Source of the DNA: an uncultured Pelagibacteraceae bacterium
Lineage (GTDB): Bacteria; Pseudomonadota; Alphaproteobacteria; Pelagibacterales; Pelagibacteraceae
Assembly (NCBI GenBank): GCA_902629935.1
Contig: CACOSU010000002.1
Coordinates: 1 to 64,000, forward strand
Length of the DNA: 64,000 bases
Reading direction: 5' to 3'
The notes below the pieces were generated by a model, which worked only from the letters and a program-made list of their open reading frames with translations, was not told where the DNA came from and searched no databases. Within the stretch, counting starts at the first letter, position 1. Each line of letters begins with the position of its first letter. The position numbers and the translations under genes were made by a program. Shown piece after piece: positions 28,943-34,011 of the stretch.

Positions 28943-29852
28943 TTTGAGTAAATGCCTCTGCGAATTTTTCGGCCTCAAAAATTTGTAAATCATCCTCTTT
29001 TTCACCTAATCCAAGTGCAATAATTGGTAGTTTATATTTTTTAGCAACAGCTAAAAGAATACCTCCTTTTGCTGTGCCATCTAATTTTGTCATAATAAGA
29101 CCAGTTATTGGAATAATTTTATTAAATTCTTCAACTTGATTAATTACATTTTGGCCAGAAGTTGCATCCAAAACTAAAATAACATCATGTGGAGCATTAG
29201 GATCAATTTTTTTAGTAACGTTTGCAATTTTTTTATATTCTTCCATCAAATTTTTTTTATTTTGTAGTCTTCCAGCTGTATCAATTAAAACTTGGTGAAA
29301 ATTATTGTTTAATGCTTCTTCAATAGCCTTGTAAGCAACTGATGCAGGATCAGAACCTTGAGATGATTTTGTAATTTGAACATCAACTTTGTTTGCCCAA
29401 TTTTCTAGTTGATCTATAGCTGCTGCTCTAAAAGTATCTGATGCAGCTAGCATTACTTTGTTTCCATTACCCTTTAATATTTTGCTTATTTTTCCAATAG
29501 TAGTTGTCTTTCCAACACCATTGACACCTGAAATTAATGTTGCATTTAATTTTTCTTTTTTTTTGAAGAATTCAATATTTTCTAAAGGTTTCATTATTGA
29601 AATAATATAATTTTTTAAAATATTATTTATTTCGTCAGTTAAATCTTTATTGGGATCAATTTTTGTTTGAGAAATTATTTCTCTTATTTCTGAAGCAGAA
29701 ACAATTCCAACATCAGATTGAATTAAGTAATCTTCAATTTTGTCTAATGTTTTGTCATCAATCTCTTTTTTTACAACTATATCTCTTAAACCCGTTGTAA
29801 AAGCTGAGGCACTTTTTTTAAAGCCTGATTTAAATTTCTCAAAAATTCCCAT
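28935..29852 (-). CDS. ftsY: Signal recognition particle receptor FtsY (NG domain only)
   Basis: GVNGVGKTTTIGKI, AASDTFRAAAIDQL, LIDTAGRLQNKKNLMEE, TKLDGTAKGGI. Confidence 0.95.
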   Translation of the reverse strand: MGIFEKFKSGFKKSASAFTTGLRDIVVKKEIDDKTLDKIEDYLIQSDVGIVSASEIREIISQTKIDPNKDLTDEINNILKNYIISIMKPLENIEFFKKKEKLNATLISGVNGVGKTTTIGKISKILKGNGNKVMLAASDTFRAAAIDQLENWANKVDVQITKSSQGSDPASVAYKAIEEALNNNFHQVLIDTAGRLQNKKNLMEEYKKIANVTKKIDPNAPHDVILVLDATSGQNVINQVEEFNKIIPITGLIMTKLDGTAKGGILLAVAKKYKLPIIALGLGEKEDDLQIFEAEKFAEAFTQIN

Positions 29853-30676
29853 TAAATTTTAAAATTTATCTCCTCAATATCTGAAACTGGTCCTTTCATA
29901 TGAATACTATTGTTTTCATCAATTGAAATTGTCAATCTACCTTTAGAAAATTCAATATCAACTTTATCATTTACCAGTCCGTTTTGTTTTGCGGCAAAAG
30001 CTGTTGCGCAAGCTGCAGTTCCACAAGCTTTGGTAAGTCCAGCTCCTCTTTCCCAAACTCTAACTTTTATCAATTCTTTGTTAACAACAGTTGCTAAAGT
30101 AACATTACATTTTTCTGGAAATAGAGAGTGGGTTTCGATTTTTGGTCCAATTTTTTCAATTTCAAAATTTTCGTTATTATCAACAAAAAAAACTACATGT
30201 GGGTTTCCAACATTTACAGCAGTTCCACCAGAAAATTCGTTATTATTTTTGTCATTAATTTTAATTCCTAAATTATTCGTATTTAATTCTTTAGACAATG
30301 GAATCTCATCCCATTTTGTTTTTGCAACACCTATTTCTGTAGAAACCATTTTATCTCCAACAATATTTGATTTTAATTTGCCAGATAAAGTTGTTAGGAC
30401 AATTTCTTTTTTGTTATTTTCTTTGCCTAATAAATCAGCAATACATCGCGTACCATTTCCACACGCACCAGACATTCCTCCATCTGAATTATAAAATTCT
30501 AGTGAAGCATCTGAAATATCATTTTTTTTAATCAATATTAGTTGGTCACAACCAATAAATTTTCTGTCACAAATCTTTATTATTTGCTCTTTCGTCAAAT
30601 TTGTAATTGTTTGCCTATTATCTATGATGACAAAATCATTACCTAAACCGTCCATTTTAAAAGCTTTAATATCCAT
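29852..30676 (-). CDS. dapF: Diaminopimelate epimerase
   Basis: MDGLGNDFVIID, GACGNGTRC, GAGLTKACGTAACA catalytic cysteines. Confidence 0.95.
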   Translation of the reverse strand: MDIKAFKMDGLGNDFVIIDNRQTITNLTKEQIIKICDRKFIGCDQLILIKKNDISDASLEFYNSDGGMSGACGNGTRCIADLLGKENNKKEIVLTTLSGKLKSNIVGDKMVSTEIGVAKTKWDEIPLSKELNTNNLGIKINDKNNNEFSGGTAVNVGNPHVVFFVDNNENFEIEKIGPKIETHSLFPEKCNVTLATVVNKELIKVRVWERGAGLTKACGTAACATAFAAKQNGLVNDKVDIEFSKGRLTISIDENNSIHMKGPVSDIEEINFKI

Positions 30677-30730
30677 ATATAGATATTTAACTTATTTATT
30701 GACTTTTTGAACCTCTATTATAGGTTGTTG

Positions 30731-30813
30731 CCGTTTCCGCAAAAACATTAACTTTGCGGTGTCTTTGGAAACAAAGAGATCGACACTAGTCAGCGAGGGT
30801 TCGCCCACTAGTG
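30731..30813 (+). ncRNA. Candidate structured RNA / ffh 5' leader (three hairpins, one GAAA and one UUCG tetraloop)
   Basis: CCGCAAA(30737-30743)/TTTGCGG(30753-30759); CTTTG-GAAA-CAAAG (30763-30776); CACTAGT(30784-30790)...GGG-TTCG-CCC...ACTAGTG(30807-30813); noticeably more GC-rich than flanks. Confidence 0.6.
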
Positions 30814-30836
30814 CGTTACTGCTATGCGTAATAAAT

Positions 30837-32195
30837 ATGTTTGAAAATTTAACAAATAAATTTGAAGAAATTTTTTCTTCTCTGAAAAAGGCACCTTCAC
30901 TTGATGAAGCTCAAGTAGATGAAGGTTTAAGAGGTATTAGGCAAGCCTTACTTGAAGCAGATGTCTCTTTGGATGTTGCAAAAGATTTTATTGAAAAAGT
31001 TAAGCCAAAAGCATTAGGCCAAGAGATAATAAGGTCTACCTCTCCTGGGGATATGGTTGTTAAAATTGTTTATGATGAGCTTGTAGACTTATTAGGTGCA
31101 ACAAATAACGAGATAAACTTAAACGCAGTACCGCCTGTGCCAATGATGTTAGTTGGGTTACAAGGTTCTGGAAAAACAACAACAACAGCAAAATTAGCAA
31201 AATTTTTAGAAAAGAATAAAAAGAAAAAAGTGATGATGGTCAGTCTAGATATTTATAGACCAGCTGCTCAAGAACAACTTAGATCTTTAGGAGAACAAAA
31301 TAATATTTTAACTTTACCTATTATAGAAGGTCAGCAACCTGCTGATATCTGTAGAAGAGCAATAAGTGCCGCTAATTTAAATGGAGCTGAAATAATTTTA
31401 TTTGATACTGCTGGTAGAACTCAAATTGATTTACAAATGATGAGTGAGATTAAGCAAATTGAAGCTGTCATTAATCCAACAGAAACTTTCTTAGTTGCAG
31501 ATTCTTTAACAGGTCAAGTTGCAGCCTCAGTGGCAAAAGAATTTAAAAATACAGTTAATTTATCTGGAATTATTTTAACTAGGGCTGATGGTGATGCAAG
31601 AGGTGGAGCCGCAGTGAGTATGAAATATGTTTCAAACGTTCCAATTAAATTTTTAGGGATAGGAGAAAAAATAGATAATCTTGAAGTATTCCATCCAGAT
31701 AGAATTGCAAACAGAATACTAGGTATGGGGGATATTGTATCTCTTGTAGAAAAGGCGGCTCAAGATTTAGGAGAAGAAAATCTTAAAAAAGCAGAGGAAA
31801 ATTTAAAAAAAGGTCAATTCTCTATGGAAGATTATTTATCTCAATTAAGACAAATGAAAAAAATGGGTGGTATTGAGGGAATTATGTCTTTTATGCCCGG
31901 AGTTTCTAAAATTAAATCCCAAATGGACTCAGCGGGAATTGATGAAAGTATAATTACTAAAAATGAAGCTGTTATTTTGTCAATGACAAAAAAAGAAAGA
32001 GAGAACCCAAAAATAATAGATGGTTCTAGAAAAAAAAGAATTGCTAATGGCTCTGGCACAGATCCGGCCACTATCAATAAATTGCTTAAGCAATTTAAAA
32101 TGATGTCTGAAATGATGAAAAAGATGTCAAAAGGAAATCTGAAAGGTATGTCTGAAAAAGGTATACCGCCAGAGCTATTTAACCAATTAAAGTAA
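30837..32195 (+). CDS. ffh: Signal recognition particle protein Ffh (start revised from ORF track 30759 to ATG at 30837)
   Basis: [13 protein letters not shown]..., [38 protein letters not shown]-terminal Met-rich M domain. Confidence 0.95.
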
Positions 32196-32208: not shown

Positions 32209-32721
32209 ATGTTAAAATTAAGATTATCAAGAGGTGGAACAAAAAAGCGTCCTGTTTATAAGGTTGTTGTTGCCGACAGTCGTTTTGCAAGAGATGGAAG
32301 ATTTATAGAAAAGGTTGGTTTCTTTAATCCTCTATTACCAAAAGAGAAAAAAGAAAGAGTGGGTCTAGAAGCTGAGAGAATTAAATATTGGCTTGGTCAA
32401 GGAGCTCAACCAACAACTAGAGTAGCAAGAATTTTAGGTGAGAACGAACTAATGCCTATGCCTGCAAATGGAAATAATCCAAATAAGGCAGTGCCAAAAA
32501 AAGAGAGAAATAAAAAAGAAGAGGATAATAAAGAAGCTCCAAAAGCAGAAGCAGCTCCAGCAGCAGAAGCTCCTAAGGAAGAAGCTCCTAAAGCAGAAGC
32601 AGCTCCAGCAGCAGAAGCTCCTAAGGAAGAAGCTCCAGCAGCAGAAGCAGCTCCAGCAGCAGAAGCTCCTAAGGAAGAAGCTCCTAAAGCAGAAGCTCCC
32701 AAGGAAGAGGAAAAAAAATAA
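32209..32721 (+). CDS. rpsP: 30S ribosomal protein S16 with long Ala/Pro/Glu/Lys tail
   Basis: [41 protein letters not shown]; tail of [16 protein letters not shown] repeats. Confidence 0.95.
32536..32712 (+). repeat. 48-bp (16-codon) tandem repeat, about 3.6 copies, within the rpsP C-terminal tail
   Basis: Units beginning gct at 32536, 32584, 32632 and a partial at 32680, encoding [16 protein letters not shown]. Confidence 0.85.
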
Positions 32722-32735
32722 ATTAGAGGTTATTT

Positions 32736-33422
32736 ATGTGGCAAGCTCAAGTGTTTACACTTTATCCAGAAGTTTTTCCTGGTCCTCTATCCAAAGGACT
32801 TTATGGTAAAGCTTTATCAAATAATTTATGGAAACTAAAAGTTGTAAATATACGAGACTCAGCTGATGATAAACATAAAACAGTAGATGATACACCCTAT
32901 GGAGGTGGCTCTGGAATGTTGTTAAAAGCAGATGTTCTTGCAAAGTCTTTAGATAAAAATAAAAATGAGAATGAGAGAATTTTATATTTGTCACCAAAAG
33001 GAAAAAAATTTGATCAAAATTTAGCAAAAGAACTTGCTGATGAAAAATCATTGTCAATTATTTGTGGTCATTTTGAAGGTGTCGATGAAAGAATACTTTC
33101 AACAAGAAAGATTGAGGAGATTAGTATTGGAGATTTTGTTCTGTCAGGTGGAGAGTCAGCTGCGTATGTAGTCATAGATAGTATTTTAAGATTACTGCCA
33201 GGTGTATTAGGAAATGAAAACTCTAAATTAGATGAAACCTTTGAAAATGGTCTTCTAGAGTACCCTCAATATACAAAACCTCAAGTTTGGGAGGAAAAAG
33301 CCGTACCAGACGTACTATTATCAGGGGATCATAATAAAATTAAACACTGGCGTTTATCTCAATCTGAGGCTATAACACGCGACCGAAGACCAGATTTATG
33401 GGAAAAATATAAGAAGAATTAA
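32736..33422 (+). CDS. trmD: tRNA (guanine-N1-)-methyltransferase TrmD
   Basis: [43 protein letters not shown]. Confidence 0.95.
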
Positions 33423-33438
33423 CTTGATAAATATTAAC

Positions 33439-34011
33439 ATGAAAACGATTGAAGAAATAAACCAACATAACGTTAAGAAAATACTTTCAGAGAAAAAAAT
33501 TCCTGAATTTTATCCTGGAGATGTTGTTAAAGTAGGTGTGAGGATTACTGAGGGTAAAAAAGAGAGAATTCAGTATTTTGAAGGGGTTTGTATTGCTAAA
33601 AAAAGTAGAGATTTAAACTCATCTTTTACCGTCAGAAAAATTTCTTTTGGTGAAGGTGTTGAGAGAACCTTTCCTTTATTTGGAACATTAATTGACTCAA
33701 TCAAAGTTATCAGATCTGGTAAAGTAAGAAGAGCTAAACTATATTATTTAAGAGACAGAACAGGTAAATCAGCAAGAATTGCTGAAAAAATTAGAAAAAA
33801 AATTGGTATTGATATCGATGTAAAACCAGAAACAGTTACAGAGGAAAATGTAGTCCCAGTAGCAGAAACTCTAAATGAAGAGAAAGCTTCAGCAGGAGAA
33901 GCTTCTAAAGCAGAAGAAGCTCCTAAGGCAGAGGCAGCACCAGCAACAAAGGCTACTAAAGAGGAAGCTCCTAAAGAAGAAAAGTCAGAGGGTGCTTCAG
34001 AGAAAAAATAA
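33439..34011 (+). CDS. rplS: 50S ribosomal protein L19 with Ala/Pro/Glu/Lys tail (ATG at 33439; TTG at 33424 in the ORF track is also possible)
   Basis: [66 protein letters not shown]. Confidence 0.93.

Follow-up and report, generated by a model that had tools for sequence, protein, structure and literature searches.

The dapF-ffh intergenic region and its RNA

The window, i.e., the whole stretch of 64,000 nucleotides that was analysed, stems from the AT-rich genome of an uncultured Pelagibacteraceae bacterium. Positions 30725-30836 belong to the divergent gap between dapF (29852-30676, minus strand; Pfam PF01678) and ffh (30837-32195, plus strand; PF00448, PF02978, PF02881), which codes for the SRP54 family signal recognition particle protein and starts with the ATG at 30837. 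Sequence and placement are as the original prediction had described them. On the plus strand ffh is followed by rpsP (ribosomal protein S16, 32209-32721; PF00886), which we propose to be the real target of the element and the gene of its ligand, by trmD (tRNA (guanine-N1) methyltransferase, 32736-33422; PF01746) and by rplS (ribosomal protein L19, 33424-34011; PF01245), the true start of which may lie a few codons later.

A scan of the region against Rfam (cmscan) yields a single strong match, to RF01793 ('ffh'), at 30769-30821 on the plus strand. It covers the full model (1-52) with 56.9 bits (E 1.7e-9; the gathering cut-off is 35 bits), and the genome has one copy. The segment is a known RNA, a member of RF01793, and probably forms the 5' leader of an mRNA which comprises ffh, rpsP, trmD and rplS. 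The 'ffh motif' was described in 2009 as one bulged hairpin ahead of ffh with unknown function, from the gap between dapF and ffh in Candidatus Pelagibacter ubique (PMC2704228). The locus is the same, as are the bulged hairpin with its two near-invariant cytosines, the covarying stem and, in the window, the position upstream of ffh. With the confident Rfam match and the 2009 paper, the novelty initially supposed for the segment is lost. The same intergenic position has furnished expression evidence in other alphaproteobacteria, i.e., the roughly 120-nt sRNA candidate sm5 of Sinorhizobium (PMC2573895) and an RNA-seq peak termed 'ffH leader RNA' at the equivalent locus of Bartonella (PMC7717549); neither report proposes a mechanism or a target. 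What is added here are further hairpins, a better model and a reassignment from ffh to the rpsP operon.

The view that the segment is not an obvious ffs (4.5S RNA) gene holds. At E values up to 10 the Rfam scan found nothing for RF00169 in the vicinity of the element, and a separate 4.5S candidate is located elsewhere in the genome (contig C12, 16932-17024, minus strand; L002, genome G000). At 35.5 bits (E 3.6e-6) this candidate remains below the RF00169 cut-off of 40 bits; the 4.5S RNA of SAR11 thus appears to be divergent. What the segment has in common with 4.5S RNA is a link to Ffh by name only.

Three hairpins, two of which share a strand

Hairpin P3, the core of RF01793, spans 30784-30813 on the plus strand. 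It consists of a 7-bp stem (CACTAGT/ACTAGTG), a C.C mismatch (30791/30806), a position x-y (30792/30805) and a terminal GCGA/UCGC helix (30793-30796/30801-30804). The bulge of the published motif is thereby resolved into the C.C mismatch and a covarying pair. Double changes are present at 10 of the 12 pairs, in an alignment of 36 sequences as well as in one of 98 model-aligned sequences. In the latter the C.C mismatch is kept in 96, and x-y, an A.C in the window, is A.C in 66, G-U in 9, C-G in 8, A.A in 7, G-C in 4 and U-A in 2. A UUCG tetraloop closed by GGG and CCC, as originally drawn, fails because the homologues read GCGA-GUU-UCGC and offer no GGG with which CCC could pair. An extension of P3 by pairing of AUCG/CGAU with the tail was considered and discarded; a G-to-A change in SAR11 is not tracked by its partner.

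P2 (30757-30782, plus strand) adjoins P3 on its 5' side and takes the form XGGU...AUCX', with an outer helix CGGT/ATCG (30757-30760/30779-30782) and an inner helix TCTTTG/CAAAGA. The sequence ahead of ffh was collected from about 115 homologous loci. P2 shows double changes at 7 of 10 pairs in the 36 sequences and at all 10 in the 98. Over P2 and P3 together 90.1% of cells pair in the 36 sequences compared with 73.0% in shuffles, and the covariation score is 0.504, where shuffles give 0.187 and slid controls do not exceed 0.137; kinship among the sequences inflates such shuffle-based statistics. The 98 model-aligned sequences score 0.446 versus 0.153, in an alignment which is structure-fitted and hence leans towards the structure. 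Covariation, the check which had been suggested for this RNA, is strong in P2 and P3.

P1 (CCGCAAA/TTTGCGG) occupies 30737-30759 on the plus strand with its strands at 30737-30743 and 30753-30759 and exists in the aligned Pelagibacterales sequences and in part of the other families. Together with the second hairpin, at 30762-30767/30772-30777, it had been predicted correctly from the window alone. The bases CGG at 30757-30759 belong both to the 3' strand of P1 and to the 5' strand of P2. Base 30757 covaries with its partners in both helices: in 29 SAR11 sequences the triplet is G/C/G in 22 and A/T/A in 7, and as these sequences are related this corresponds to few independent events. Among the 98 sequences a P1 which overlaps P2 can be formed in 29 where 10.2 are expected; outside SAR11 it is 20 of 83 where 8.1 are expected. 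These alignments support the view that P1 and P2 are mutually exclusive or exchanging helices. The switch proposed initially, a pairing of GTTTCC with GGAAAC, is a different one and is not conserved. The loop letters of P2 vary, e.g., GGTAAC in L003, and the conserved overlap is CGG 30757-30759. The single-hairpin model RF01793 lacks P1, and its 5' flank corresponds to the 3' half of P2.

Single-sequence folding is weak on the plus strand (z -1.68; reverse strand -3.80), and for this reason the structural evidence rests on the homologues. An RNA from the reverse strand was rejected in spite of its somewhat better lone fold: the TTGAC box, the distance to ffh and rpsP, and the orientation of the published transcripts favour the plus strand. 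Likewise, a helix P0, which would close the element by pairing its 5' end with the tail, was dismissed. In SAR11 the 5' and tail segments of one sequence pair slightly more stably than swapped ones (23 of 5000 swaps as good), but other families give no signal (2422 of 5000), and the transcript probably starts downstream of the 5' segment.

The sequence TTGACT (30699-30704, plus strand) is a probable -35 box, followed after a 16-nt spacer by a weak -10-like TAGGTT (30721-30726, plus strand). Owing to this weak -10 hexamer a generic promoter scan did not list the pair. The TTGAC box recurs at the same hairpin-relative position upstream of P1 in SAR11, in other alphaproteobacteria and in the family in which rpsP alone follows. 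From its position, transcription probably starts near 30733, at P1. Downstream of P3 a conserved single-stranded tail (30814-30826, plus strand) has a consensus of about C-R-W-U-W-N-N-N-G-Y-U-K-G; across the 98 sequences U occupies position 4 in 90% and UU positions 10-11 in 85-94%. There is no terminator-like site between 30600 and 30900, and SAR11 tails have no U-run.

In the window 23 nt separate the end of P3 from the ATG of ffh, and no Shine-Dalgarno sequence is evident in front of it, as had been noted. Across loci this distance varies between 17 and more than 200 nt, which makes it unlikely that P3 generally acts by covering a ribosome site. In L045 and L047 palindromic repeats of the type CCTCAGGATGAGG are inserted between P3 and the ffh start codon, which shows that the spacing can vary freely here. 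ffh usually begins with ATGTTTGA, and the TGA contained in this start can therefore terminate a reading frame which comes from upstream. An example in the window is ATG CGT AAT AAA TAT GTT TGA, from 30823.

RF01793 is detected in 131 of 147 Pelagibacterales genomes. A model built on P2 and P3 (R1) recognizes the element in 203 of 385 alphaproteobacterial genomes compared with 106 for RF01793, i.e., in nearly twice as many. Of 80 loci searched with R1, which were centred on rpsP or came from f51, nearly all have a strong match upstream.

The rpsP operon and a family without ffh

In 141 genomes the positions of element and rpsP could be compared. In 139 of them rpsP follows the element on the same contig and in the same orientation, at a median distance of 1549 nt (minimum 44 nt, in family f51; maximum 5069 nt). 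In the two exceptions the genes are on different contigs, and in one of these, G497, ffh itself is split by a contig break. The first gene after the element is ffh and not rpsP in most genomes; rpsP is the gene common to every arrangement, with trmD having been checked less widely. In G427 the gene for L19 is about 2 Mb away, yet the element remains ahead of ffh-rpsP. In the window no rimM separates rpsP from trmD (32721-32736), whereas it is present at this place in f51 and G427.

The family f51 is a group of marine alphaproteobacteria represented by 18 genomes (G195, G319, G414, G490 and G527-G540; loci L121-L139 and L217), six of which have a completeness of 90% or more and little contamination. 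Genomes of the family are labelled PS1 clade, OCS116 cluster or Hyphomicrobiales AH-657-K06. In the four f51 genomes tested with TIGR00959 neither Ffh nor the usual cross-match to FtsY was found. The SRP GTPase domain PF00448 is above cut-off in none of the 18, a sub-threshold match of 20.5 bits in one genome being the only signal, and 4.5S RNA (RF00169) was detected in none of the 18. The same searches produce matches in control genomes. A literature search brought up no paper on the absence of SRP in f51.

RF01793 is present in 14 of these 18 genomes, and here its neighbour is rpsP, there being no ffh. In all 14 f51 loci and in five contigs of named genomes (at least two of them from the same genomes) the TTGAC box is followed by P2, P3, the tail, a stretch rich in purines and the ATG of rpsP. 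The operon reads rpsP-rimM-trmD-rplS. In G195 (L217) dapF is still the divergent neighbour, so that ffh seems to have been excised between the leader and rpsP. ftsY, which adjoins dapF in the window, is missing from that place in G195. The rpsP gene of f51 may simply have inherited the leader upon deletion of ffh; compensatory changes argue that the structure is still under selection. Within f51 93.7% of cells pair, and 17 cells have double changes compared with 5.4 in shuffles. If the loss occurred once, at the base of f51, all of the sampled changes came after it, and the leader structure has been maintained without ffh.

As a side observation, the S16 and L19 proteins of SAR11 (32209-32721 and 33424-34011) and the S16 of f51 (L217, 5222-5737) have long low-complexity C-terminal tails rich in Ala, Glu, Pro and Lys (or Ala, Pro and Val).

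The probable target operon and the proposed ligand

What the leader responds to has to be weighed against these arrangements. Meyer et al. (2009), and subsequently the original prediction, considered an autoregulation of ffh, with the leader bound by Ffh or by the SRP composed of Ffh and 4.5S RNA. Ffh does bind RNA, the gene next to the element is ffh in nearly all genomes, and GUCAG in the 5' strand recalls the SRP RNA loop. The latter is a resemblance only. We rejected a mimicry of the 4.5S loop by GUCAG and A.C; in other families the A.C at x-y is exchanged for Watson-Crick or G-U pairs (C-G, G-U or U-A), and Meyer et al. themselves found no likeness to the Ffh site (PMC2704228). The element and its selected structure persist in f51, where Ffh, FtsY and 4.5S RNA are undetectable. 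Of the autoregulatory ffh leader the structured leader stands, as borne out by covariation, the TTGAC box and the lack of a terminator between hairpin and ATG; a general role specific for ffh is not supported, given the evidence from f51. We regard control by Ffh as improbable. The least probable reading is an independent trans-acting sRNA with its own promoter which ends at a U-rich tail, ffh and rpsP being transcribed by read-through. The Sinorhizobium candidate of about 120 nt (PMC2573895), the RNA-seq peak of Bartonella (PMC7717549), the Rfam classification of RF01793 as sRNA and U-rich tails in some lineages are in line with it. The window has no terminator after P3, which ends 23 nt ahead of the ATG; 139 of 141 genomes keep the place before ffh or rpsP, as would be the case for a cis element, and the Bartonella authors themselves think that leader RNAs are more likely cis-acting (PMC7717549).

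The element probably serves the rpsP operon rather than protein targeting, because f51 keeps it without a detectable SRP, rpsP follows in the same orientation in 139 of 141 genomes, L19 is encoded elsewhere in G427 and the operon lacks RimM in the window. The leader of this operon could sense another product (TrmD, L19 or RimM) or a more general signal, for instance Rho, an RNase or control by growth rate. All operons inspected have trmD linked, and the unfixed spacer length would fit a control of transcription or stability. The separate location of L19 in G427 and the lack of rimM in the operon of the window speak against these two products. TrmD is not known to be the ligand of a leader, which counts against it as the sensor. 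On balance we consider a sensor other than S16 rather unlikely.

That the conserved role of the leader is control of the rpsP operon, with S16 as the most likely autoregulator, we hold with slightly more confidence than doubt, judging from gene order and covariation. A conserved structured RNA is located 5' of the operon which encodes the proposed ligand, and it stays with rpsP upon rearrangement, as seen from the loss of ffh in one clade (f51) and the unlinking of L19 in one genome (G427). Many known leaders of ribosomal-protein operons have no obvious rRNA mimicry. A transcript initiated just upstream of P1 would fold into P2 and P3, plus P1 in SAR11 and its relatives. Surplus S16 relative to 16S rRNA would bind the P2-P3 core and thereby lower the expression of its own operon; ligand and sign are inferred. 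ffh would be co-regulated where it resides inside the rpsP operon. Premature termination or destabilisation of the mRNA is favoured, at low confidence, over blocking of the start site, since the first start codon lies at a variable distance. The broader statement is advanced more tentatively and could well fail: RF01793 may be an S16 autoregulatory leader with a strand-sharing P1/P2 switch which extends through much of the Alphaproteobacteria and is misnamed for ffh. A literature search uncovered no paper which links the ffh motif to S16. The closest counterpart is an S16 leader predicted in Flavobacteria in the 2020 survey by Eckert and Weinberg (PMC7247131), likewise ahead of rpsP(-rimM) and with S16 as the likely ligand. 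It stems from a different phylum, ffh is unmentioned in that paper, and the two RNAs are set side by side by description only.

A 2024 review notes that nothing is known about the regulation of the rpsP operon and describes it as rare in this respect among ribosomal-protein operons (PMC10931766). The apparent lack of the entire SRP pathway in a free-living bacterial family would be surprising in itself, and the family deserves a study of its own. For the leader the SRP-less f51 acts as a natural gene deletion, in which the element does without Ffh. The name of the RNA points at protein targeting, f51 to the rpsP operon.
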